Of a stretch of 33,531 nt of DNA, positions 10,049 through 33,531 are shown piece by piece (the stretch's first letter is position 1; every line of letters begins with the position of its first letter). Position numbers and translations under genes: made by a program. Source of the stretch: Thiotrichales bacterium (GTDB lineage Bacteria > Pseudomonadota > Gammaproteobacteria > UWMA-0217). Where the stretch lies: positions 1-33,531 of the forward strand of contig JANTGD010000003.1 in NCBI GenBank assembly GCA_024763135.1, written 5' to 3'. The notes under the pieces were generated by a model, which searched no databases, was not told where the DNA came from, and saw only the letters and a list, made by a program, of their open reading frames with translations.

Positions 10049-10585
10049 ATGACGATACGTAGTGTAGTGATAATGATCGTAGTGGCGCTTTTCCTTGGCG
10101 GTTGTGCGGGGAATAAAAAAGTGACCAAGCCAGAAATCGAGCGCGGCGCGCCCGAGCCTCCGAGCAGCGCTCAAACCAGCGGGGCAGGAATGGGCAGCGG
10201 CACTGCGACTGAAATGCAGGGCGCCATGGATCCGTTTGAAGATCCCAATAATCCCTTGTCACAACGTGTGATTTACTTTGACTACAACAGCAGTGACGTC
10301 AAAGATATCGATATTGTCAATGCACACGCCCAGTATCTTGCCGATCATCCTCAAGCACGTGTGCGTCTTGAAGGGCACGCGGATGAACGCGGTTCGCGGG
10401 AATACAATGTGGCACTGTCCGAACGGCGCGCATTGGCAGTCAAAGAACTGATGATGTTCCGTGGCGTTAGGCCCAATCAGATCACAATTATTGCTTATGG
10501 AGAAGAACGTCCTGTGGTCTATGGGCATGACGAGGCGTCGTACCGGGAGAATCGCCGCGTAGAGATTGTCTATGAAGCCAAATAA
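10049..10585 (+). CDS. pal: Peptidoglycan-associated lipoprotein Pal
   Basis: Lipobox LFLGGC, OmpA-like VIYFDYNSSDV...LEGHADERGSREYNVALSERRA. Confidence 0.96.
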   Translation: MTIRSVVIMIVVALFLGGCAGNKKVTKPEIERGAPEPPSSAQTSGAGMGSGTATEMQGAMDPFEDPNNPLSQRVIYFDYNSSDVKDIDIVNAHAQYLADHPQARVRLEGHADERGSREYNVALSERRALAVKELMMFRGVRPNQITIIAYGEERPVVYGHDEASYRENRRVEIVYEAK

Positions 10586-16369: not shown

Positions 16370-17119
16370 ATGGCTGCTTCAGAATTAAATATCTCAATTA
16401 GGCCTGATTCTTCGCTATCGGTTGTCTTTCAGGCAAAGGGGGTCACCAAGATTTACCAGATGGGTGAGGTGCAGGTTCATGCGCTACGCGGTGTTGATCT
16501 GGAGCTGCGGGAGGGTGAATTTGTTGTCTTGCTAGGTGCATCGGGGAGCGGCAAGTCGACATTGCTCAATATCCTAGGCGGCCTGGACGTACCTACCAGT
16601 GGAACAGTGCACTACAGAGACCAGGACCTGACCACCTTTAGGGACTCGGTGCTTACCCGTTACCGTCGTGAGCATATTGGATTTGTGTTCCAGTTCTACA
16701 ATCTGATACCCAGCCTCACCGCAAGGGAAAATGTCGCGCTGGTAACCGAAATTGCAAAAAACCCTCTGGCGCCGGCAGAGGCTTTAAAGCTGGTTGATCT
16801 GGGCGATCGTCTGGACCATTTTCCGGCGCAGTTATCCGGTGGTGAGCAACAGCGCGTGGCGATAGCACGGGCGATTGCCAAGCGTCCCGAGGTGCTGCTT
16901 TGCGATGAACCCACCGGTGCGCTGGATCTGAAAACCGGTATTGTGGTGCTGGAAGCTCTCGAACGGGTCAACCGTGAACTGGGCACCACCACGGTAGTGA
17001 TCACCCACAATGTGGATATCGCGCAGATGGCTGACCGTGTCATTCACTTGAGCGATGGCAGAATTGTCAGTGATGAAACCAATCCGGACAAAGTGCCGCC
17101 CTCGGAACTGACATGGTAA
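16370..17119 (+). CDS. ABC transporter ATPase, LolD/MacB type
   Basis: [51 protein letters not shown]. Confidence 0.95.
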
Positions 17120-17131
17120 TGAGGCCCTGAA

Positions 17132-19498
17132 ATGAACGCTCTTGACCTTAAAATGTGGCGGGATCTGTGGCGTCTGCGCGGTCAGGCGTTTGCAATCGTC
17201 GCCGTGATGGCCAGTGGCGTCGCCTGTTTTATCATGTTTCTCACCACGCTGGACTCAATGCAACTGACCCGCGAGTTGTACTATCGGGATTACCGTTTTG
17301 CAGAAATCTTCGCCCCGTTAAAACGTGCACCACAATCCTTACAGGCGCGTATTGCCGCACTCAATGGCGTTGCCAGGATTGATACACGGGTGATCGCGCC
17401 GGCGACTATCGACATTGAAGGCTTTTCAGAGCCCGTCACGGGCGTCATTACTTCCATACCCGATAGCGGTGAACCACTGCTCAATAATCTCTATTTACGT
17501 TCAGGGAGATTGCTGGACGCGGGAAGAAATGATGAGGTCATCATCAGCGAGCCTTTTGCCGAGGCCCATGGTTTTAAACCAGGCGACAAGCTGCACGTCA
17601 TTGTCCGTGGTAAGCGCAAACAGCTGCGCATCGTCGGTACAGGCAGTTCACCGGAATATATTCATCAATTGCGCCCTGGGGGGACGTTCCCGGATTATAA
17701 GCACTTTGGCGTCATGTGGATGGCGCGCACGCCATTGTCCCATGCGTATGACATGGAGGGCGCGTTTAACAATATCGTGCTGACCCTCGACGAGGGCGCG
17801 AAAGGGCAGGATATTATTGACCGGATTGATGACATTCTGGATCCCTATGGCGGTGGTGGCGCCTATTTCCGCAAAGATCAGAGTTCGCATCGTTTTCTTT
17901 CTCAGGAAATCGACCAGATCGAAAATCTTGCCAATATTTTTCCGATCATTTTTCTTGGCGTGGCCGCTTTTCTGTTGAATGTGGTGGTCACGCGTCTGGT
18001 GGGCGCGCAGCGTGAACAAATCGCGGCGCTGAAGGCGTTTGGCTATGGCAACCCGGCGGTTGCGGTACATTTCTTAAAAATGGTTCTGCTGATTGTGCTG
18101 GCGGCAGTGGTGCTGGGGGTGCTGGTCGGAGCCTGGCTTGGCGTGATGCTCAGCGGGATTTATGTCGAGCTGTTTCGTCTGCCGTTTCTGAATTTCGAAC
18201 TCAGGCCGCAGCGTATCATCCAGGCGACTACTATCACCGCGATAGCCGGTTTACTCGGCACATTAGCTGCGGTGCGCATAGCGGCAAAGCTAAAGCCAGC
18301 GGAAGCGATGCGCCCTGAATCTCCGGCTGCCTATCGCCAGACCCTGATTGAAGCACTCGGAATGAAACGACTGTTTTCGGCCCCAACGCGTATGATTCTG
18401 CGCCATATCAGTCACAAGCCGCTAAAATCGCTGTTGTCAGTGCTGGGCATCTCATTCGCCTGTGCCATCCTGATGTCTGGTCGTTTTCAGGAAGACACTG
18501 TTAATTATATGATGGATATACATTATGGGCTGTCACAACGCGATGATCTTTATCTGTTATTTAACGAAGCCACCTCGCGCAAGGCGCTTGCGGAATTGGT
18601 CAGCCTGCCTGGCGTTGAATTTGGAGAGGTCTTCCGCGCTGTATCGGTTCGCCTGCGTCATGAGCATCATCATTATCGTACCTACATCCAGGGCTTTGAA
18701 CCGCGGGGTGAAATCAAGCGTCTGGTGAATACCGACCTGCAACCCTTTGAGTTGCCACGCGCCGGTATCGTGTTAAATGAATATCTTGGCAAAAATATAC
18801 TGGGCCTGAAACTGGGTGACCGGGTAACCGTGGAAGTGCTTGAAGGCAATAAACCCGTCCGCGAAGTTCCAGTGGTGGCGATGGTGCACCAGCATCTCGG
18901 GGTGGGCGCGTATATGGACAGGCGCGCACTCAACCGCCTGTTGTCCGAGGGAGACTTAATCTCTGGCGCTTATCTTTATATCGATGAAGCTTATGAAAAC
19001 GAGATCTATCAGCGCCTTAAAGAACGGCCACGCATCATAGGCACTGCAGTGCGTGCTCATGAACTGGCCAACTTCCATCGCACCATGGATGACACCATGT
19101 TGTTCAATGCGTATATCTCCGCCTTTTTCGCCAGTATTATTGCGTTTGGTGTGATCTATAACAGCGCACGCATCACTTTGACAGAGCGTGGCCGTGAGCT
19201 GGCCAGCCTGCGCGTTCTCGGTTTCACAAGAGGAGAGATTTCCTACATCCTGCTGGGTGAGCTGGCGATATTGACGCTGGTCGCGATACCACCAGGGCTT
19301 TTGTTGGGCAAGGGGCTGTGCGCCTACATCGCCAAGTCCATGGATAGCGATCTGTATCGTGTGCCACTGATTCTGGAGCCCCATACCTATGCATTCGCCG
19401 CACTGGTGGTACTCATTTCCGCGGTGGCTTCCGGTCTGCTTGTGCGCAGGCGGCTTGACCGCCTTAATCTCATTGAGGTCCTCAAAACCAGAGAGTAA
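17132..19498 (+). CDS. FtsX/MacB-like ABC permease with duplicated permease domains
   Basis: 788 aa; two FtsX-like TM blocks (AFLLNVVVTRLVGAQREQIAALKAFGYGN and IAFGVIYNSARITLTERGRELASLRVLGFTRGEI). Confidence 0.92.
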   Translation: MNALDLKMWRDLWRLRGQAFAIVAVMASGVACFIMFLTTLDSMQLTRELYYRDYRFAEIFAPLKRAPQSLQARIAALNGVARIDTRVIAPATIDIEGFSEPVTGVITSIPDSGEPLLNNLYLRSGRLLDAGRNDEVIISEPFAEAHGFKPGDKLHVIVRGKRKQLRIVGTGSSPEYIHQLRPGGTFPDYKHFGVMWMARTPLSHAYDMEGAFNNIVLTLDEGAKGQDIIDRIDDILDPYGGGGAYFRKDQSSHRFLSQEIDQIENLANIFPIIFLGVAAFLLNVVVTRLVGAQREQIAALKAFGYGNPAVAVHFLKMVLLIVLAAVVLGVLVGAWLGVMLSGIYVELFRLPFLNFELRPQRIIQATTITAIAGLLGTLAAVRIAAKLKPAEAMRPESPAAYRQTLIEALGMKRLFSAPTRMILRHISHKPLKSLLSVLGISFACAILMSGRFQEDTVNYMMDIHYGLSQRDDLYLLFNEATSRKALAELVSLPGVEFGEVFRAVSVRLRHEHHHYRTYIQGFEPRGEIKRLVNTDLQPFELPRAGIVLNEYLGKNILGLKLGDRVTVEVLEGNKPVREVPVVAMVHQHLGVGAYMDRRALNRLLSEGDLISGAYLYIDEAYENEIYQRLKERPRIIGTAVRAHELANFHRTMDDTMLFNAYISAFFASIIAFGVIYNSARITLTERGRELASLRVLGFTRGEISYILLGELAILTLVAIPPGLLLGKGLCAYIAKSMDSDLYRVPLILEPHTYAFAALVVLISAVASGLLVRRRLDRLNLIEVLKTRE

Positions 19499-19500
19499 AC

Positions 19501-20724
19501 ATGAATTTATACTGGCGAAGAAGAATCATCTGGTTACTTGTCTTGCTATTGATAGGCGCCGCATTGCTATATGGATTCCGCCCTCAACCCCGCCTTGTCA
19601 ATATCGCCGAGGTAAAACGAGCCCCCATGCAGGTCAGCGTTGAAGAAGAAGGCAAGACCCGCGTCATCGACCGTTATATTATCTCTGCGCCTGTGGCCGG
19701 AACCACCTGCCGCGTGGACATGGACATTGGTGACCATGTGAAAAAAAACCAGCCGCTCGTTACCATCGAACCCCTGAAATCACAGGCGCTGGATCCGCGC
19801 AGCCGGGCCGAAGCGCAGTATCGTGTGGCTACAAAGGAGGCCGCTTTACGCGCTGCGGAACAAAAAGCCCAATCGACCAAGGCCGAGGCCGAGCTGGCAC
19901 GAATAGAATTAAACCGCATAAAACCACTGGCGAATAAAGGCCATATAGCCAGGGAGGAACTGGACCATGCCGCTACACTTGCTCGCAGTAGTACTGCGGC
20001 CAAACGTTCTGCCGATTTTGCAGTGGACGTTGCCCGTCATGAACTGGGCGCCGCCAGGACTGCACTGAAATTCGCAGGCGCAAAAGGCGAATTGGATTCG
20101 TCAAACACGGTACAGGTTCGAGCACCGGTATCGGGAAGAATATTGAAAATCCAGCAGCAGTGTGCAGGCGTCGTCGCCGCGGGCCAGCCGTTGCTGGAAA
20201 TTGGCGATACCCGCTCCCTGGAAATTGCGACCGAGGTGCTTTCCCCGGACGCGGTTAAAATCAAACCCGGTATGCGCGTGATCTTCAATCGCTGGGGTGG
20301 AGAAAAACCCCTGCAGGGACAGGTTCGGACCGTGGAGCCGGTCGGTTTCACTAAAGTGTCTGCGCTGGGTGTGGAGGAACAACGTGTGCGGATTATTGCC
20401 GATATCACATCGGAAGAAAAGCAATGGCGAAGCCTGGGGGACGGTTATCGCGTCGAAGCTCGTTTTATTCTCTGGGAAGCAAAAAACATTTTGCAAATAC
20501 CGGGGAGTGCGCTATTTCGGGTTAACAATCACAACCAGGACCCAATAAAGGGTGGCTGGGCGGTATTTGTAATGGAAAACGAAAAAGCAAGCAGACGCAA
20601 CGTAGAGATTGGAAAGCGAAATGGTTTGTCGGCCCAGATAGTCAGGGGATTACAGAAAGGCGAAAAAGTTATAACACATCCGGATGACAGCATCGAAGAA
20701 GGTGTGGCTATAAAGCTTAGATAA
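19501..20724 (+). CDS. HlyD/RND-type periplasmic adaptor (membrane fusion) protein
   Basis: N-terminal TM, lipoyl halves (ISAPVAGTTCRVDMDIGDHVKKNQPLVTIEP / VRAPVSGRILKIQQQCAGVVAAGQPLLEIGD), coiled coil. Confidence 0.92.
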   Translation: MNLYWRRRIIWLLVLLLIGAALLYGFRPQPRLVNIAEVKRAPMQVSVEEEGKTRVIDRYIISAPVAGTTCRVDMDIGDHVKKNQPLVTIEPLKSQALDPRSRAEAQYRVATKEAALRAAEQKAQSTKAEAELARIELNRIKPLANKGHIAREELDHAATLARSSTAAKRSADFAVDVARHELGAARTALKFAGAKGELDSSNTVQVRAPVSGRILKIQQQCAGVVAAGQPLLEIGDTRSLEIATEVLSPDAVKIKPGMRVIFNRWGGEKPLQGQVRTVEPVGFTKVSALGVEEQRVRIIADITSEEKQWRSLGDGYRVEARFILWEAKNILQIPGSALFRVNNHNQDPIKGGWAVFVMENEKASRRNVEIGKRNGLSAQIVRGLQKGEKVITHPDDSIEEGVAIKLR

Positions 20725-22740: not shown

Positions 22741-23075
22741 CGAGCTCTGGAGCGCTGCAGCCAGTCGCAGGGGGAGGTTCAGCACTATCGTATTGCCGCT
22801 ATTGTTGGATGACACCTTTTAGTTTGACTGCAAGTCCTAGATGGCAGCCAACCGGAGGCAGTTCCGTGTAGCTTGGATCCGGCTTGTGAGTTAGTGTTAC
22901 CCACGGCCAGTTTCCGTAGCCGGGAAGGAGTTAAATCACCATGAGGCTGAAAAATATCTGGTTATGCGTCATGGAAAGACCTGATAATCATCTAGCGAGT
23001 TAGAGTTTGCTATAGAAAATGGCATGGGGGAGTTAGCCGCCTTTTCAATCGAAGCTGACCCAACTGGTTCGCCTT

Positions 23076-23783
23076 CTACCACAGGCCGGGGATCAAACGG
23101 AAACGAGTTTGTTTAGCATATTCTGGATAGCCGTTGAGCTCTTCGTGCAGGGTACGATCCTCCAAGTAGGTGCGCAGGATTAACAACAGTGCCAACAAGA
23201 ACGAAAGTGTTAACGCCCAGCGAGAACCCAGCGCAATGGGTACCGCGAAAAACAAGACGATCGTGAGCGTATACATCGGGTGCCGGACCCAGGCATAAGG
23301 ACCGGTTGTGATGACATGGTGGCCGCGCTGCTCATCGATTTTTACGACCTGGGCGAGATAAGTATTTTCTCGCAATACCCAGCCGAACAGAACGAAGCAA
23401 GGGATATGTACAGCGATCGCGACCAGCCTCATCCATAGCGGCAGGGGATCACTCCATTCGTATCTCACTACATCAAACCCCGGGATGATGTACAAACCGA
23501 TTGCCGCAATTAAAAACAAGGCCATAATTACCTTGTCCCAGCTTTGTTGATCTTTTTGGATTGGCACAAGCCTCATACGTTCCGCGAGCAACGCTGGATC
23601 GTGCTTCATTAAATATGGAGTAATAGTCAGTCCGAAGCCAGTCCAGAGGGTGACAACGGCCCAAGCCTCCCACCAGTACAGCGTTCCTGCAGGCCACATC
23701 AACGCAACCGCAAAAAAGATCATGCGTATTAGTAGTCGCAGCCAGATATGAGCAGGTTTATTTAGGGAGTTCGGTTGGGCCAT
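23076..23783 (-). CDS. Isoprenylcysteine carboxyl methyltransferase (ICMT)-family membrane protein
   Basis: C-terminal VITTGPYAWVRHPMYTLTIVLFF...RTYLEDRTLHEELNGYPEYAKQTRFRLIPGLW; start refined to MAQPNSL at 23783. Confidence 0.85.
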   Translation of the reverse strand: MAQPNSLNKPAHIWLRLLIRMIFFAVALMWPAGTLYWWEAWAVVTLWTGFGLTITPYLMKHDPALLAERMRLVPIQKDQQSWDKVIMALFLIAAIGLYIIPGFDVVRYEWSDPLPLWMRLVAIAVHIPCFVLFGWVLRENTYLAQVVKIDEQRGHHVITTGPYAWVRHPMYTLTIVLFFAVPIALGSRWALTLSFLLALLLILRTYLEDRTLHEELNGYPEYAKQTRFRLIPGLW

Positions 23784-23812
23784 CTGCTCTGTCCTGAAGT
23801 CCGCAGAGATTT

Positions 23813-24940
23813 TTACGAAAGCGCGACGGTGCGCCGAAATCGTGCCAGCGCGACCAGAAAGAAAATGCTGCCAATGGCGAGATTGGCCAGCAGTTGTGGC
23901 CATACGATGGACAGCCCTGCACCTCTGAAAAGCACTGCCTGGGCGAGACTCACGAAATGGGTGGTAGGTGCGGCGAGCATAATGCTTTGTACAGCGGGGG
24001 GCATGCTTTCTGGCGGGGCGTTGGCACCGGACAGCATATTCAGGGGCACAACCACAAGAATCATGAGTAGTGCGAACTGAGGCATTGAGCGGGTGATCGT
24101 TGCGAGCAGAATGCCGAGCGCCGTGGTTGAAAAAAGATGCAAGGCGGTGGCGAGAAGAAACAGTGCCATGGAGCCAGTGATAGGCATCGCAAGTCCACCC
24201 TTTACCACAATCATGAGCGACGCTGCTGCCACGGCCAGCACAACCAGTCCATTGGCCCAGACCTTAGCGGCCATGATTTGAAAGGGCGTGAGTGGCATGA
24301 CGAGCAAATGCTCGATCGTGCCATGTTCCCGCTCGCGTATCAGTGCCGCACCAGCCAGGATAATCGACAGAAAAGTGATGTTATTGACGAGCTCCATGGC
24401 TCCAAAAAACCACACCCCATTCAGATTGGGATTGAACTGCATACGAGTCGTAAGCTGGATCGGTAGCGGCGGGTCGCCGTGATAACCCAGTACGAAACGC
24501 GATACCTCACCAATGCCGATGTTCTGGATATAGCCACTACCGATAAATGCCTCGTTCATGCGGGTTGCATCGATATTGAGCTGGACGGTCGGCTGATGTC
24601 CGGCCAATACGTCGCGCTGAAAATCGGCTGGCAGATGTACCGTGAAGGTGTACAACCCCGCATCGAGGCCAGGGTCGATCTCGTCGAAGGCAATGGCCGT
24701 GGCCGGCATAAACTCCGGGGGACGCAGGGCATCGATTAAACGCCGGGACAAGGGTGATTGGTCCTCGTCAACAACGGCCACCGATGCATTACGGAGCTCG
24801 GTGGATTGGCTGTTCGCCGATTCGTAGAGTCCGAAGGAGAATGACCAGATCAGGAAGAACAGCAGCACCTTGTCGAACCACAGACTGCGCATTTCCTTCA
24901 CACCGAGCTGCAGAATATTAAGGAAACGGCGCACGATCAC
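23813..24940 (-). CDS. ABC-2 type permease (YhhJ/YbhR-like)
   Basis: [28 protein letters not shown]...; [35 protein letters not shown]. Confidence 0.92.
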
Positions 24941-27669
24941 TTCTCCTGCTTGCGCAACAGCATGGTGGAAATAATGGTGATGGCCAGAACGAAGATTGCC
25001 AGTGCAGCGAAACGGTCACCGAGGTCGCTAAAGCCCAACGCCTTGCTGAACGTGCCCTGGCTGATCACCAGAAAGTGGGTTGTTGGGTAGATCTTCGAAA
25101 ATACCGCAGCTCCGCCTTCCAGTGCGGATACCGAAGAGGTAAGTCCGGAAAAGGCAAAGGCGGGCGTCATCGTAGCGATTGCGGTTCCGAAGATGGCCGC
25201 CACCTGGGAGCGCGTAAATGTCGACATCAACAAGCCTAGTCCGCTGGTTGCTGTTACGTAGAGGAAAGCGCCCAGGCTGATGGCGCCAAGACTTCCCTTT
25301 AATTGCACTCCGAACATCGATACGGATAGCGCCAGTAAGCCGAAAAAGCCGATCATGCTGATGCCTACGTAGGGGAGTTGCTTGCCGAGCAGAAATTCCA
25401 GCCGTGTTATGGGGGTGACATATAGATTGGTAATCGAGCCCAACTCCTTTTCGCGCACGACACCGAGCGCCGTCAGCATGGCCGGAACGAGCACCAGCAG
25501 GATCGCGATGGTGCCGGGCACCATCGCATTAAAGCTTTCAAAGTCCTGATTGTACCGGTAACGCACCTCGACGCTTGCCGCGGCCGTGGGTGAGGCAACA
25601 CCGTTGCGTGTAGCGAGATCGGTGAGGTATTGATAATGCAGGCCCTGCACATAGCCACGAACTGTCTCGGCGCGAAATGGCATCGCGCCGTCAATCCACA
25701 TAGCGACTTCGGGCGAGCGGTTGCGCTTGAGATCACGCCCGAAGCCGGGAGGTATCTCTAAGGCCAGACTGAGTTCGTGATTGCGCATGCGCAGGTCGAG
25801 TTCGGCGTGATCGCGTATGGGTGATCGCTCAATGAAATAACGGGAACCAGAAATATTCTGTATATAGTCGCGGCTCTCCGGTGTCTGGTCGTGATCCAGG
25901 CTTGCGAAACTCAGTGAATCCACATCGAAGGTCATACCGTAACTCAGCAGGATCATGAGCAGCACGGTACCAAACAGGGCGAAGGTGAGGCGGATCGGAT
26001 CACGCCACAATTCGAGGGTTTCCCGCCGCGCCACGCCGAGCATCCGGGGGAGCCTGAAGCCGTGGCGCAGCGGTGGTGCTGCTGGCCGTTCAGTGGCTGG
26101 GGCGATCGGTGCTGTATCGGGTTCAACGCCCGCTGCTTCCTCCAGATAAGCGATGAAGGTCTCCTCCAGCGTGGCGCTGCCGCGCGCATGCTTGAGCGCT
26201 TCCGGAGTATCGCTTGCCAGCACTTTGCCCGCATGCATTAAAGAAATGCGATCGCAACGTTCGGCCTCATTCATAAAGTGGGTGGAAATGAAGATGGTCA
26301 CGCCCTGGCAACGGGAGATATCCATCAACAGCTCCCAGAACTGATCGCGCGCGACCGGATCGACGCCGGAGGTTGGTTCATCGAGGATCAGTATCTCCGG
26401 CTTATGGACCATCGCAACCGCCAGCGACAGACGCTGCCGAATACCCAGAGGTAATTCGGCGGCCAGTGCGTCAGCGTGATCGCCCAGATCAAATCGATCG
26501 ATGAGCTCCTGCACACGTGGCAACACTTCATCTGCGGGCAAATGAAAAAGGCGTGCATGCAATACAAGGTTCTGGCGCAAGGTCAGTTCGGAGTAGAGCG
26601 AGAAGGCCTGGGTCATGTACCCGACCCGCTTGCGGGTATCGAGGTCCTGCGGATCGACAGGTTGGCCGAACAGCTTGGCTGTGCCCGCGCTCGGTGGCAG
26701 CAAGCCGGTGAGCATCTTCATTGTGGTTGTTTTCCCGCAACCGTTGGAACCCAGAAAGCCAAAGATTTCACCGCGCTCAATGCGAAAGGACACGCTATCA
26801 ACGGCTGTAAAATCGCCGAAGCGCATCGTCAGCCCCGCGGCCTCGATAGCCAGATCACCGCCGCTTTCCAGCTGGCGAGGTGGCACAGTGAGTTCGTGGT
26901 GGCCCGCGCGTTTTGACTCGGGCAGGAGGGCTATGAACGCAGAATCCAGGTTACTGCTGCCGGTGCGGGTCTTGAGTTCGTCCGGGCTGCCGGTGGCGAG
27001 TATCTGTCCATCGTTCATCGCTACAAGCCAATCAAAGCGCTCGGCCTCTTCCATGTAGGCGGTGGCAACCAACACGCTCATATCCGTTCTTCGTGCGCGC
27101 AAGCGATCGATCAGCTCCCAGAACTGGCGACGGGACAGGGGATCGACGCCGGTGGTTGGTTCATCCAGGATCAGTAGATCGGGGTCGTGGATGAGGGCAC
27201 AACAGAGTCCCAGTTTCTGCTTCATTCCACCTGAAAGCTTGGCGGCTGGCCGGTCGCGAAAGGGCGCAAGACCGGTACTGACCAGCAGTTCGTCTATACG
27301 CTCGACACGCTCGGCTCGCCTCTGGCCGAACAGTCGGCCGAAGTAGTCCACATTGTCGAAAACCGAGAGTGTTGCATACAGGTTGCGTCCCAAACCCTGC
27401 GGCATATAGGCGATACGCGGCGAGATGGAATTGCGGAATCCGGCGCGGCTCATGTCGCCCTCAAACACCTCGACAGAACCGCTTTGCAGGCGGCGTGCGC
27501 CGGCAATCAGTGCTAGCAGGCTGGACTTGCCGACACCATCAGGCCCGATCAGCCCCACACGACATCCGGCCGGGATGTCCAGTGTGACGTTGTTGAGTGC
27601 GTGGACCTTGCGATAGCGATGGCTTACGTCGATAACGCGAGCAACCGGGGTGGCTGTTTGCCCGTTCAT
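24937..27669 (-). CDS. RbbA/YhiH-like ABC transporter: two ATPase domains fused to an ABC-2 permease
   Basis: Walker [10 protein letters not shown] and [22 protein letters not shown] and [13 protein letters not shown]; signature KLSGGMKQ and degenerate [11 protein letters not shown]-terminal permease with [28 protein letters not shown]. Confidence 0.93.
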
Positions 27670-28652
27670 TATGGCAGGCGCACCTGTAATGATTCAGGCC
27701 AGCTGATATCCGTGCCGAGTCGCAGATAAGCGACGCCCGGTACGCCGGTCTTCATAATTGCGCCGTGCTTGGTGAGCAGCTCCGGATCGATACGGACCTT
27801 GACGCGGAACATGAGCTTTTCACGTTCAGTGCGAGTCTCGACTTCCTTGGGTGTGAACTGCGCATCGGGTGAGACAAACGACACGGTGGCTGGAATGGTG
27901 TATTCAGGTATGGCATCGAGCACGATGCGCGCTTCATCTCCGATGCGTAACCGCCCCGCCTGCATGGTTGGCAGGAATATGGTCATGTAGGCGTCGGTTA
28001 GGTTTAGGATGGTTAACACCTTGCCGCCAGACGGAAGCACCTCACCCGGTTCGGCCAGACGATAGAGCACCCGTCCCGCGATCGGTGTTTTCAGCGTGCT
28101 GTCGTCAATACGGGTACGCACCGATTCGACTCGCGCCTGAGCTGCGTCAATTGCCGCGCCCGCGAGCGCAAGCTCAGCCTCTGCCGCAGACAGTGCTGCC
28201 GAGGCCGTCTGCACGGTGGTCTCGCTGCGTTGTAACTGCTCGATAGGGATGTTCCGGTTTTCGTACAGCCCGCGCGAGCGCGCTAGGCTCTTCTCCGCCA
28301 GACTGACTTCGCTTTTCCGCTGGGCTATGACTGCTGCGGCAGCGGTACGTTGTTTTTGTGCCTGTATGACCTGAGCCATTGCCTGACGCAGCTCGGCCTC
28401 CAGTTCGCGCACATCCATCACTGCCAGAACCTGATCTGCACTGACGTTATCGCCTTCTCGAACCTCTATGCTGGACAAGCGTCCCGGGAATTTGGTTGTG
28501 ATGTCGACCTGGGTTGCTTCCAGGCGGCCATTGCCGGATGCGATGCCGGGCGGTGTTTCGGGCGGCTGCAGGTACTGCCAGGTGAGCATGGCGAACACCC
28601 CGAGTACCGCAAGCACAACAAGCGTTACCTTCATCTTATTCATTTCGACCAC
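27669..28652 (-). CDS. HlyD-family adaptor (YhiI/YbhG-like)
   Basis: [38 protein letters not shown] ... [32 protein letters not shown]. Confidence 0.92.
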
Positions 28653-28669
28653 GCTTTCGCTCCTGCTGA

Positions 28670-31051
28670 TTAATTTGGCATCGGTATGCCTTGTTCTGAG
28701 AAATAACGCTCTGCGCGCGCAAACCAGTCAGCCTGGTCATCGCTGGTAAGGAAAAAATCAAAGCGCGCAGCGGCACGCTCCACTTCCATTAAGGTGCGCA
28801 CAAAGTCATAGACTGCAGTTGCGGCCCTCAGGTCGGCCACGAGCGCGGCATTCTGCGCATCCAGTAGATCAAGGACTGACATCGCGCCGCTGGAGTAGGC
28901 ATCACGGACCACAACAAAATTGCTCTCTGCGGCATCGGCCGCTTGTCGTGACAGGCGAATGGCCGTGTAGGCTGCGCGGGTTGTATACAGGGCCGAGCGC
29001 ACGCGTTGTTCAACACGCTCGGCTACAGCCTGTCGCTGTATGCGCAGCCCGCTGAGTTCCTCGTTAGCGCTGGCCTCCCGGGCGGCGCGCGCGCCACCGG
29101 TAAATACCGGTAACGACAATTGCAGCCCAATTGTTGTTTCACTGTCGTCCATACCTGGCAACGGTGCGTTCCCAGCACCATTGCGTGAAAAGGTTTCGGT
29201 GCGGTCTGCACGCAGGCTTAGCGTTGGCTGCCAGTAAGCGCGATTCGCAGAGTCCAGAGTTCGCTCCTGCGCGCGGATGAGGGCGTCAAGTTGGCGTAGT
29301 TCAGGAGCACTGGTGAAGGCATCTTGAACGATGAAGTCGCGCAAAACCCGAAAGCTCGCGGGATTGGCAATGAGCTTAAACAGGCGTTGCTGGCTCGTTA
29401 CGAGGACTGGTTCATTGAGACCGACTTCCAGGGTGGCAACGATGTCTTCCAGCGGTCGATGGAGCAGTGCATTCAGGGCAGTCTCGGCCACCTGTGTTTG
29501 CGCCTGAGCTTCGACAACAGCGCGCTGAGCATTGGCAATTTCGCTTTCCCAACGATAAACCTCGCTTGGTCCCGCAGTGCCGATGCGCCGCCGTCCTCGG
29601 GCCAGCTCTAGATTTGAGCGCGACAGTCGCAGATTGTCTTTCTGGACTCCGCTGTTGGTCTTGGCGCGCAACACGTCGAGGTAGGTTTGGGTAGTCTCTA
29701 GGACGATGTCGAGGCGGACCCGTTCGTACTCTATCTCCCGGGCGCTATGCAGCTGTTTCTGTATATCGAGATTAGCGCGTGCCGGTTCCGAGTAGATGAC
29801 CTGATCAAGCGTGAGCGAACCGCTGGCTGTGTGCTCAGAACGGCCAGGAATAACTGTGGCGTCATCTTCTTCGATCGTGAGGCTGCGACCGCTGAGACCA
29901 ATCTGTGGGAGCAGAGCGGAGCGTGCTTCGCGGATATTCTCTCTGCCAGCGACCACGCCAGATTGAGCGATACGGAGATTGAGGTTTTTCTCCAGCGCCT
30001 GCTCAACTGCGTCTGCCAGCGTTAGGGGTGGTCCGACCGCCTCCGGCTCGTCGTATAACAATTCAGCTTGAGTCAGCAATGGCCACTTCGGCGAAAATCC
30101 GATAGCGCGAGCAGTGCGCATATTGAGCGTCAGCCCTTCGGCTCGTGCAAAGGCGACAGGCAGGTTGCTGGCCTTCTCGCCGAGCAGAATACGGCGCATA
30201 TTCAATGCTACGCGCCGCGCCACCCTGTCCATCTCAAGCGCCGGCGTGATACCAACCAGCAGGCCGCGCGCGACGTCGGTTTTCCCCTCGAAGGCGAAGC
30301 TCGGGAGGCGTCGCTCGATCAGCCCCTTAACCAGCCGTTGATATTCCAGTGATGATAGTGCCGGTAACGGACCGACATAGACTGCCTGGGAGTCCTCCGG
30401 GATGGCCGCAAGAATAGCCATGGCCGAGTCAGATCCGGTCACGGGACTAATCGTAATATCAAGCTCCTGTGCTACCCGAGAAACTTCTTTATTAATACCC
30501 GGGATTGCTTCGGCAATCGCAGCATCGAGCAGCAGTGTCAGCCGCGTGAATGGTACAACCTCCTGGAATGCGCTGAGGTCGCGGAGGATGTCTACGTCCA
30601 GACTGATGTAGCTGAGGTTGCGTTTGCCGCTGGCGCCATCTTTATACGGAATCTTTTGTAGCCCATGGTTGGATATCAACGGAGCGACAACGGGCTTGGG
30701 TAGCCTTTTCCGTAGTGCCGCTACATGGGACCCCAGCGCACCTAGCGTTACAACGACGTCGGTGCGTGGATCTGCGATTGCTTTATCAAGGGCATTGCGA
30801 ACGCCCGCCAATGTGCGATCAGCTTCAAGCTGGAGAGCAGTGGGTGCCTGAATATCGAATTCGCCCTCATTGACAGCGCGCATCTCGTCCAGGAAAACAG
30901 AGCGTAGTGATTGGGCACGCTCTGAAGGGCCGTCTGTCAGGATGGCGACATTGACAACAGGTAGTTGGCGGGCGGCCTGCACAGTAACCGGGAGATTGAG
31001 TACAATCGCCAGAGCCAAAATGACAATCTGTTTTGTCATGAGCTGCCTCAT
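28670..31051 (-). CDS. Fusion: N-terminal ABC substrate-binding-like domain + C-terminal TolC-family outer membrane efflux domain
   Basis: 793 aa; signal peptide; residues ~30-330 resemble the ABC_sub_bind/COG2984 fold (VVTLGALGSHVAAL, VYVGPLPALSS, RRVALNMRRILLGEKASNLPV); from ~350 OEP repeats (TLADAVEQALEKNLNLRIAQ, TYLDVLRAKTN, LPVFTGGARAAREA). Confidence 0.82.
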   Translation of the reverse strand: MRQLMTKQIVILALAIVLNLPVTVQAARQLPVVNVAILTDGPSERAQSLRSVFLDEMRAVNEGEFDIQAPTALQLEADRTLAGVRNALDKAIADPRTDVVVTLGALGSHVAALRKRLPKPVVAPLISNHGLQKIPYKDGASGKRNLSYISLDVDILRDLSAFQEVVPFTRLTLLLDAAIAEAIPGINKEVSRVAQELDITISPVTGSDSAMAILAAIPEDSQAVYVGPLPALSSLEYQRLVKGLIERRLPSFAFEGKTDVARGLLVGITPALEMDRVARRVALNMRRILLGEKASNLPVAFARAEGLTLNMRTARAIGFSPKWPLLTQAELLYDEPEAVGPPLTLADAVEQALEKNLNLRIAQSGVVAGRENIREARSALLPQIGLSGRSLTIEEDDATVIPGRSEHTASGSLTLDQVIYSEPARANLDIQKQLHSAREIEYERVRLDIVLETTQTYLDVLRAKTNSGVQKDNLRLSRSNLELARGRRRIGTAGPSEVYRWESEIANAQRAVVEAQAQTQVAETALNALLHRPLEDIVATLEVGLNEPVLVTSQQRLFKLIANPASFRVLRDFIVQDAFTSAPELRQLDALIRAQERTLDSANRAYWQPTLSLRADRTETFSRNGAGNAPLPGMDDSETTIGLQLSLPVFTGGARAAREASANEELSGLRIQRQAVAERVEQRVRSALYTTRAAYTAIRLSRQAADAAESNFVVVRDAYSSGAMSVLDLLDAQNAALVADLRAATAVYDFVRTLMEVERAAARFDFFLTSDDQADWFARAERYFSEQGIPMPN

Positions 31052-31411
31052 CAGAGCGAAAATCTACCAGCGCATTTGAAATTTTTATGCGTGGGTATTA
31101 TTTAAACGCCAACCCCATAGAACTGTGCGTCCCAACAGCATGTCCTACTTGAATTCGATGTCCTGTCTCCAGTGAAAGCAACAGAACCAGTATCAAGTAG
31201 AGACACTCTGTATTCTTCGGACTAACCCGGTAAAAACAACAGCTAATTACCATGCTGTCAATATAAGTATAGCAAACAGAATCTGAGATTTTTTCTGAAT
31301 TCAATTCAATCGGTATTAGATCAATGAGACGCAATATTTTTAGAGAATCTCTGCTTGCAGTTATACTTTCCGAACTGGAAAAACAGCATTTAATTGACGT
31401 ATTAAAATTGA

Positions 31412-31564
31412 GTGAAAGTAGATCAGGAATTTTCTGCCGGCGATCATCATTGGATGCGTGAGGCACTTGCTCTTACTGAGCAGGTGGCGGCGCAGGGCGA
31501 GGTCCCGGTCGGTGCTGTTTTAGTGCATGAAGGAGAGGTTTTAGGGCGGGGAGCCACTGAAGGA
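31412..31564 (+). pseudogene. tadA: tRNA adenosine deaminase TadA N-terminal fragment, truncated by the repeat element
   Basis: GTG start; VKVDQEFSAGDHHWMREALALTEQVAAQGEVPVGAVLVHEGEVLGRG then divergence into the repeat; deaminase HAE and PCxxC motifs absent. Confidence 0.82.
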
Positions 31565-31810
31565 TAGGAACTTCAACCCCCTTACTCAACCAGAGCCTGA
31601 CAAAATCTCCCGATTCAGGAAACATCATCTTGTCCCGGCACCGAGCCACCATCCCTTCTTAATACCGTATTCTGGCCGGACCAGTCACCCAAGCATCATG
31701 AAAATGCCGTATTACCACGGAAAACCGCAAACAGCGGGCGCAAAATAACCTGCCGGAACGTTGCTTCACTCAGCATTACTGAGAGTGTCCTGGACTTCGT
31801 TACCACCTCA
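31565..31810. repeat. Copy 2 (solo) of the IS91-associated dispersed repeat, same orientation as copy 1
   Basis: Core 31588-31810 nearly identical to 14619-14850; no transposase beside it. Confidence 0.93.
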
Positions 31811-31915
31811 GCCTTGAGCTTGTCGATCACATCCGGGGCAAGCAGGCAGCGCTTGCTGTGTTGGTGAAAATTCAGCCAGCCACAACCGCCAACAGGGAGG
31901 GAATAGAGCGGCGGT

Positions 31916-33217
31916 TTATCGCTCGGTCAGTGGTTGATATTGGCGTCGGGCGTATCCGGTGTAGAGTTGTCGTGGTCGCCCGATGCGTTGTTGAGGGTCG
32001 TTCATCATCTCTGTCCAGTGGGAGACCCAGCCGACTGTTCTGGCGATGGCGAACATTACGGTGAACATGTTTTTGGGAATACCGAGCGCTTCGTAAATAA
32101 TTCCTGAGTAGAAGTCGACATTGGGGTAGAGCTTGCGCTCGATGAAGTAGTCATCTTGCAGGGCGATGTCTTCCAGTCGTTGGGCCAGTTCGAACAAGGG
32201 GTTGTTGTGGTCGCCGAGTTTGGCCAGCACTTTTTTACACAGTTCCCGAACGATTGCGGCTCGCGGGTCGTAGTTTTTATACACCCGATGACCAAACCCC
32301 ATGAGGCGGAAGTGATCCTGTCTGTCTTTGGCTTTGGCGATAAAACGGTCCAGCTGAGCCGGGTCGCCGATTTCTTCGAGCATATTCAGTACGGCTTCGT
32401 TGGCACCGCCGTGTGCGGGCCCCCAGAGTGACGCAATGCCGGCGGCGATGCAGGCAAAGGGATTGGCTTGCGAGCTGCCCGCTAGTCGAACCGTGGAGGT
32501 GCTTGCGTTTTGTTCGTGATCAGCGTGCAGAATAAACAGGGTATCCAGTGCTTCGACCGCCAGCGGGTCGGGTTCATAGTCTTCACAGGGGGTGGCGAAC
32601 ATCATGTGCAGAAGATTGGCGCAGTACGACAGGTCGTTCCGCGGAAAGATCGAGGGCTGGCCGATATTGTGTTTGTAGCAGGCGGCGGCAATGGTAGGCA
32701 TTTTGGCGATTAGCCGATGTGCCGAGATGTCCCGGTGACGGGGGTTTTTGATGTCGAGAGAATCGTGGTAGAACGCAGACAATGAGCCGACGACACCTAC
32801 CATAATCGCCATGGGATGCGCATCGTGATGAAATCCCTCGAAGAAATTATAGAGGGATTTATTGAGCATGGTGTGGTGGGTAATGATGTCGGTGAAATCT
32901 GTCAGTTCACTTACCGATGGCAATTCACCATAGAGCAATAAATAAGCGGTTTCCACAAAGTTGCCGTGTTGTGCAAGTTGCTCGATGGGGTAGCCGCGAT
33001 ATTCGAGAATGCCGGCGTCACCGTCTATAAAAGTAATTTTGCTTTCGCAGCTGGCGGTGGACATAAAGCCCGGATCAAAGGTCAATAGTGACGCTTCCCG
33101 ATACAGTCGGGAAATGTCAACGGCCGGATCTCCCTGCACTGGTCGGCGTTCAGGCAGCGTGATCGATGTTTGTGTCCGATTATTGGTGAGTGTGTAAGCT
33201 TGTTTGTCTGCCTCCAT
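31916..33217 (-). CDS. gltA: Citrate synthase (type II, hexameric-like)
   Basis: [22 protein letters not shown]...[17 protein letters not shown]-like [18 protein letters not shown]...[13 protein letters not shown]... Confidence 0.97.
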
Positions 33218-33393
33218 GTGGCTATTCCTCGCTGTATCAGTGTTGCGTAGGCGATCTCTGCGGGTTGACGGGGCGGATCGTTGGCATGGCGTATCGATGA
33301 CAGAGTCATACCTGTTAAATCAGAGTATAGATCACTGCATGCGTAACTGGCCCCTGCAAGCAGCTGTCGCAAACCTGCAGCGCTGCGTGCTTT

Positions 33394-33441
33394 GTACTAG
33401 TACCTCGTCAATATCATGTTGACGAGACGAGGTACTAGTAC
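33394..33441. repeat. Long perfect inverted repeat with nested palindromes upstream of gltA
   Basis: GTACTAGTACCTCGTC -16 nt- GACGAGGTACTAGTAC; each arm contains the palindrome GTACTAGTAC; internal hairpin CTCGTCAA-TATCATG-TTGACGAG. Confidence 0.9.
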
Positions 33442-33531
33442 ACCGACAAGTCCAAACTGTCTATATCAGCGCAAACCCACGCGTACAGAACAAGGCATTG
33501 TTGCGAAGCCATGGTTGTTCCATGTCGAGCA

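Follow-up and report, generated by a model that had tools for sequence, protein, structure and literature searches.

A TolC-type outer membrane channel fused to an ABC_sub_bind-type binding domain adjoins export pumps in several bacterial phyla

Results

An operon on the minus strand of the window (the whole stretch of DNA analysed, 33,531 nucleotides) has the order fusion gene–HlyD–RbbA–ABC2 permease, its first gene joining a periplasmic-binding domain to an outer membrane channel. Its features are as follows.

28670..31051, minus strand: fusion protein, ABC_sub_bind-type binding domain plus TolC-type outer membrane channel, 793 aa (ORF, Pfam, profile, structure model)
30974..31051, minus strand: Sec-type signal peptide, residues 1–26 (MRQLMTKQIVILALAIVLNLPVTVQA), read by eye from the sequence
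30059..30958, minus strand: bilobed class I periplasmic-binding domain (N-domain), residues about 32–331 (AF2, Foldseek, profile matches)
30020..30058, minus strand: linker of 13 residues (332–344) into TolC helix 1 (full-length model)
28742..30019, minus strand: TolC-type channel, residues 345 to about 770 (two OEP matches, DSSP order, Foldseek TolC/OprM)
27669..28652, minus strand: HlyD/YhiI-type periplasmic adaptor (PF13437, PF16576)
24937..27669, minus strand: RbbA, two ABC ATPase domains and an ABC2 permease in one chain (NF033858)
23813..24940, minus strand: YhhJ-like ABC2 permease (PF12698, 9.6e-31)
23076..23903, minus strand: PEMT/ICMT-type membrane methyltransferase, possible accessory gene (PF04191, 8.4e-10)

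The fusion gene (28670–31051) is a single uninterrupted frame with an ATG start, one stop and none internal, which bears out the claim of an earlier note on this DNA that one in-frame ORF joins both domains. The signal peptide has no lipobox cysteine; in the full-length model, residues 3–19 form a helix and residues 20–26 have low pLDDT. This model (pLDDT 88.5, pTM 0.73) contained both folds, and a Foldseek search with it returned TolC (7NG8, target TM 0.83, E 1.4e-20) as well as 3LKV (target TM 0.81). At the junction, a strand stops at residue 332 and a helix (345–355) starts, with pLDDT dropping to about 76 to 84 between them. The two-domain split of the earlier note (25–345 and 346–793) stood, while the exact ends shifted slightly to about 32–331 and 345 to about 770.

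Genes in the operon were tightly packed, with a gap of 17 bases between the fusion gene and hlyD, an overlap of one base between hlyD and rbbA and of 4 bases between rbbA and yhhJ. RbbA reached the equivalog score of NF033858 (1503.6 bits vs a cut-off of 1050), and the HlyD protein matched NF002939 (E 5.4e-37) with a score under the cut-off of that model. The adjoining HlyD adaptor, RbbA and ABC2 permease are exporter genes, in agreement with the earlier reading that the fusion belongs to export. Elsewhere in the same 33 kb lies a second ABC exporter (16370–20724, plus strand), comprising a LolD/MacB-like ATPase, a LolCE-like permease of 788 aa and a MacA-like adaptor. ARAGORN called a tRNA-SeC at 26056–26140 (plus strand), antisense within rbbA; this is probably a false call, because Rfam found no RNA family over 23000–33531.

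PF02321 (OEP) matched the window protein twice (171.7 bits vs a gathering score of 22), both repeats lying from residue 345 on and the best stretch being residues 345–530 (E 1.9e-50). According to DSSP, the elements of the channel run in the order H1/H2, two beta strands, two long coiled helices and an equatorial insert, all repeated once. Residues Y719, G722 and D731, hallmarks of the channel's periplasmic end, were invariant or nearly so in relatives. The score for the type I secretion TolC subfamily, TIGR01844, was 146.6 bits and lay under the cut-off of 225.15. Together, the two OEP repeats and the TolC fold identified by Foldseek uphold the earlier call of a TolC-type channel following the N-domain.

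The N-domain of the window protein alone gave no Pfam match even at E 1, the PF04392 ABC_sub_bind profile included. Among 64 aligned relatives, 40 matched PF04392 (E up to 0.1; best 2.4e-10), and any other Pfam family was matched by one member only. A profile built from these 64 relatives and searched against all PDB sequences found 3LKV (E 2.3e-10) and 3LFT (E 1.6e-4). The AlphaFold2 model of the N-domain, made from the 64-sequence alignment, had a mean pLDDT of 93.2, and its five top Foldseek matches in the PDB (3LKV, 3LFT_B, 6HNJ, 3LFT_A and 6HNI; E 8.7e-16 to 1.7e-14) were all ABC_sub_bind proteins, followed by a ribose-binding protein at E 6.2e-8. Target TM was 0.80 for 3LKV and 3LFT_A and ranged from 0.76 to 0.80 over 3LKV, 3LFT and 6HNI. 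As modelled, the N-domain is a class I bilobed ABC_sub_bind-type fold. The earlier call of such a fold is thus matched by both profile and structure, and the Venus-flytrap architecture it implied is that of the proteins placed first in the structure search.

Solved ABC_sub_bind relatives have Trp, Phe or Tyr as ligand and hold its amino and acid groups alike (PMC6816091), the shared ligand-coordinating residues of TrpX being T108, A127, T129, D152 and N233 (PMC9382623). None of these five was kept in the window protein, which by profile alignment has A105, L125, S127, L151 and A231; a separate MAFFT alignment likewise kept none, with N233 falling on P230 instead of A231. Nor were they the majority residues in the fused family, where these positions are mostly hydrophobic or variable. 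The same residues were also absent from many standalone gammaproteobacterial ABC_sub_bind members, so their loss signifies another ligand or none and does not mark the domain as dead. Cleft loops, defined solely by the strand ends of the model, showed no higher conservation than other parts of the domain in the 64-member family (permutation P = 0.78). At the equivalents of the five ligand positions, similarity was above average in the gammaproteobacterial RbbA clade (0.84 vs 0.68) and in Nitrospirota (0.77 vs 0.61), as lineage-specific ligands would give, and below average in 3/5 clades examined; with five positions, this comparison is weak.

Residues invariant in 64/64 N-domains included D40, G41 and G104 in first-lobe loops, together with V260, G263, R279, G291, L307, N310, T313, A314 and A329. 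The most conserved stretch of the N-domain was its C-terminal motif, LTxNMATARAIG, which adjoins the channel and whose conservation there would fit a structural role.

To find relatives, genome contigs were scanned with the single sequence, which gave 0 matches, and with an alignment of five, which gave 80 loci. Both domains lay in one open frame at 76/80 loci, a rate biased because the scan used one pattern, taken from the C-terminal motif that the fused proteins share. The exceptions were L015 (in-frame TAA), L083 (frame break), L046 (broken copy) and L041 (contig end). In a class-wide profile search, free of this bias, 19 of the 20 best matches fell in frames of 772–832 aa and the other was L098, a broken copy next to an RND fragment; standalone binding proteins appeared only from about E 1e-24 and weaker. 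The fusion occurred in about 5% of the 369 genomes of the class-wide sample. Its nearest relative, L008, is one frame with 74% identity to the window protein.

Fusion loci were labelled Gammaproteobacteria, Thermodesulfobacteriota, Nitrospirota, Nitrospinota, Gemmatimonadota, Acidobacteriota, Myxococcota and Hydrogenedentota, amounting to at least eight phyla. Beyond these, Campylobacterota and Fusobacteriota were represented, by complete plasmids from Sulfuricurvum kujiense and Cetobacterium somerae. A literature search, mostly of papers available without subscription, found none on this fusion architecture.

Several loci were irregular. The in-frame TAA of L015 (10000–10002) lies early in the channel half, and this locus has no recognised pump adjoining. 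In L012, from the Olavius algarvensis delta symbiont, an in-frame TAG (10330–10332) lies in the channel half with homology on both sides, and could be a recoded codon or the mark of a pseudogene. At L046 and L098 the N-half of the fusion runs into an RND pump fragment and the channel half is gone; these loci are broken or recombined.

In FastTree trees with a small outgroup sample from other Gammaproteobacteria, made up of unfused channels and of binding proteins that stand alone, fused channels formed one group (support 91), as did fused binding domains (support 100). Since each half forms one clade, the simplest reading of the sequences would be one old fusion event, followed by vertical and perhaps lateral spread. 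The N and C halves diverged in step (Spearman 0.77 over 1225 pairs with rows and ancestry in common). Differences between the window protein gene and L008 fell mostly at codon position 3 (0.21/0.14/0.57 for positions 1–3 of the N half, 0.17/0.11/0.53 for the C half), suggesting that both halves are under purifying selection in this pair.

An export pump of either type adjoined the fusion, judged by gene neighbourhood, at 67/80 loci. An RND-type pump gene lay within 6.5 kb at 49/80 loci, its identity being checked by Pfam on one member (ACR_tran, 3.2e-159), and RbbA and/or YhhJ-type genes adjoined at 18/80. The remaining 13/80 had neither pump type, most being on short or cut contigs. The rarity implied in the earlier note did not hold: the architecture is widespread, and mostly adjoins RND pumps. 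No importer genes were recognised beside the fusions whose neighbours were read, and the permease and ATPase of an ABC importer, with which ABC_sub_bind proteins work, did not appear in these neighbourhoods. The association with RbbA requires at least three changes on the tree, so the same kind of channel has switched pump partner. Because the binding domain is present beside both pump types, it goes with the channel and not with one pump.

Gene order varied. The fusion gene is first in the operon in the window, L008 (as far as the contig goes), Desulfuromusa (L010) and Sulfuricurvum (L115), and last in the gammaproteobacterial clade. On the Sulfuricurvum plasmid (L115, NC_014754.1) the order is TetR, fusion, HlyD, rbbA, permease, TetR, and phospholipase genes lie close by. 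General control by TetR was rejected, as only L106 among the loci compared matched the Sulfuricurvum TetRs; given the fast divergence of TetRs, this test is weak. Lipid-transport genes of MCE/PqiAB or MlaF-like type adjoin the fusion at L034, L031, L025, L029, L037 and L015, which are related loci, small in number, from Nitrospirota, Nitrospinota and delta lineages; at L034 they lie just upstream on the same strand. Relatives of the window methyltransferase also occur at fusion loci L070, L072 and L076. The lipid-transport genes, with the PEMT-type genes beside some RbbA operons, hint at lipid cargo.

Discussion

The window channel resembles TolC/OprM outer membrane factors in its two OEP repeats, its full alpha-beta barrel fold and its adjoining adaptor and pump. 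However, the known TolC, OprM, CusC and VceC begin either with helix 1 or with a lipid anchor, whereas this channel carries about 300 extra residues. These residues share their fold, and a conserved C-terminal motif with Asn, with TrpX/SP1069 (3LFT), VC_1101 (3LKV) and CD0873 (6HNI). Those are separate, mostly lipid-anchored importer proteins binding Trp, Phe or Tyr; in contrast, the window N-domain has 0/5 of their shared ligand residues and is fused to an exporter channel. The HlyD, RbbA and ABC2 permease genes follow the same order as in E. coli YhiI-RbbA-YhhJ, an operon that, to our knowledge, lacks its own channel gene, whereas the window operon begins with the fused channel. An additional periplasmic part outside TolC is also seen in YbjP-TolC, although YbjP is a separate DUF3828 lipoprotein without a binding-protein fold, and the YbjP-TolC data give no support to an allosteric role (PMC13082787). 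Overall, this is a variant of the known tripartite exporter, with a channel that bears a binding-protein domain.

We propose, with a probability of roughly 0.45, that the N-domain is a module, tethered to the exit duct of an exporter, that captures substrate or senses in the periplasm. The sensor, gate or capture function put forward in the earlier note is plausible. On this reading the operon encodes all parts of a tripartite ABC exporter (channel-HlyD adaptor-RbbA-YhhJ), the fused channel being its outer-membrane part. After Sec export and signal cleavage, the binding domain would sit in the periplasm on its 13-residue linker at TolC helix 1, and a trimeric channel would present three such domains, one per protomer. 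In channel homologues that are lipidated, the N-terminal segment extends across the channel as far as the outer membrane, a course that YbjP imitates in E. coli (PMC13082787). By analogy, the N-domain is probably held beside the equatorial belt of the channel, under the outer membrane, three per trimer. There it may bind a periplasmic ligand, either the cargo or a signal for the cargo, and binding could raise the local concentration at the pump or alter the readiness of the channel to couple. This ligand would vary by lineage and differ from the aromatic amino acid of the solved relatives. We hold rather loosely the broader view that these proteins constitute a widespread, undescribed class of export channel with a Venus-flytrap receptor, in which the exit duct captures or gates on a ligand and both RND and ABC engines are served.

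A ligand-less former binding protein, retained as a scaffold or docking domain that braces the channel against the adaptor, peptidoglycan or outer membrane, is the main alternative, though we rate it as less probable. It would account for the lost ligand-holding residues, for cleft conservation no higher than elsewhere and for the strongest conservation lying next to the channel, and the E. coli lipoprotein YbjP does reach from the equatorial domain of TolC to the membrane (PMC13082787). However, the two-lobed fold is complete, the hinge residues, first-loop D40-G41 and G104 are kept in 64/64 members, and the size of the binding domain is constant over phyla, all of which count against mere bracing.

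Binding-protein domains gate glutamate receptors, and by this parallel the N-domain might act as a sensor only, reading a periplasmic signal and gating the channel while handling no cargo. Such a domain need not match one cargo, consistent with its adjoining two unrelated pump classes, and in the full-length model a short linker joins the two folds within a single chain. Nevertheless, the coupling of domain to channel that this presupposes is putative, and we regard sensing alone as improbable.

Import, with the channel admitting a ligand that the domain hands to an importer, would follow the ABC_sub_bind proteins of known function, which serve aromatic amino acid import (PMC6816091, PMC9382623), but it is very improbable given that the adjoining pumps are exporters (RND, or RbbA/YhhJ with HlyD) at 67/80 loci and no importer was recognised beside the fusions whose neighbours were read. 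Finally, a frameshift or assembly join of two genes, a worry of the earlier note and conceivable for a MAG-like assembly of 432 contigs, has a negligible probability and was rejected, as independent genomes show one frame, L008, 76/80 relatives and the complete plasmids among them.

Public annotations name the fusion by one half, as an ABC transporter substrate binding protein or a TolC family protein, which hides the class. In the usual picture of tripartite pumps the outer-membrane channel is a passive duct, the substrate being selected by the inner-membrane pump and partly by the adaptor. If our proposal is true, recognition or control would be placed at the exit, over many phyla and two unrelated pump classes. 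The transport role of RbbA is unsettled, and the window operon would give it a complete channel-adaptor-pump set for testing export.
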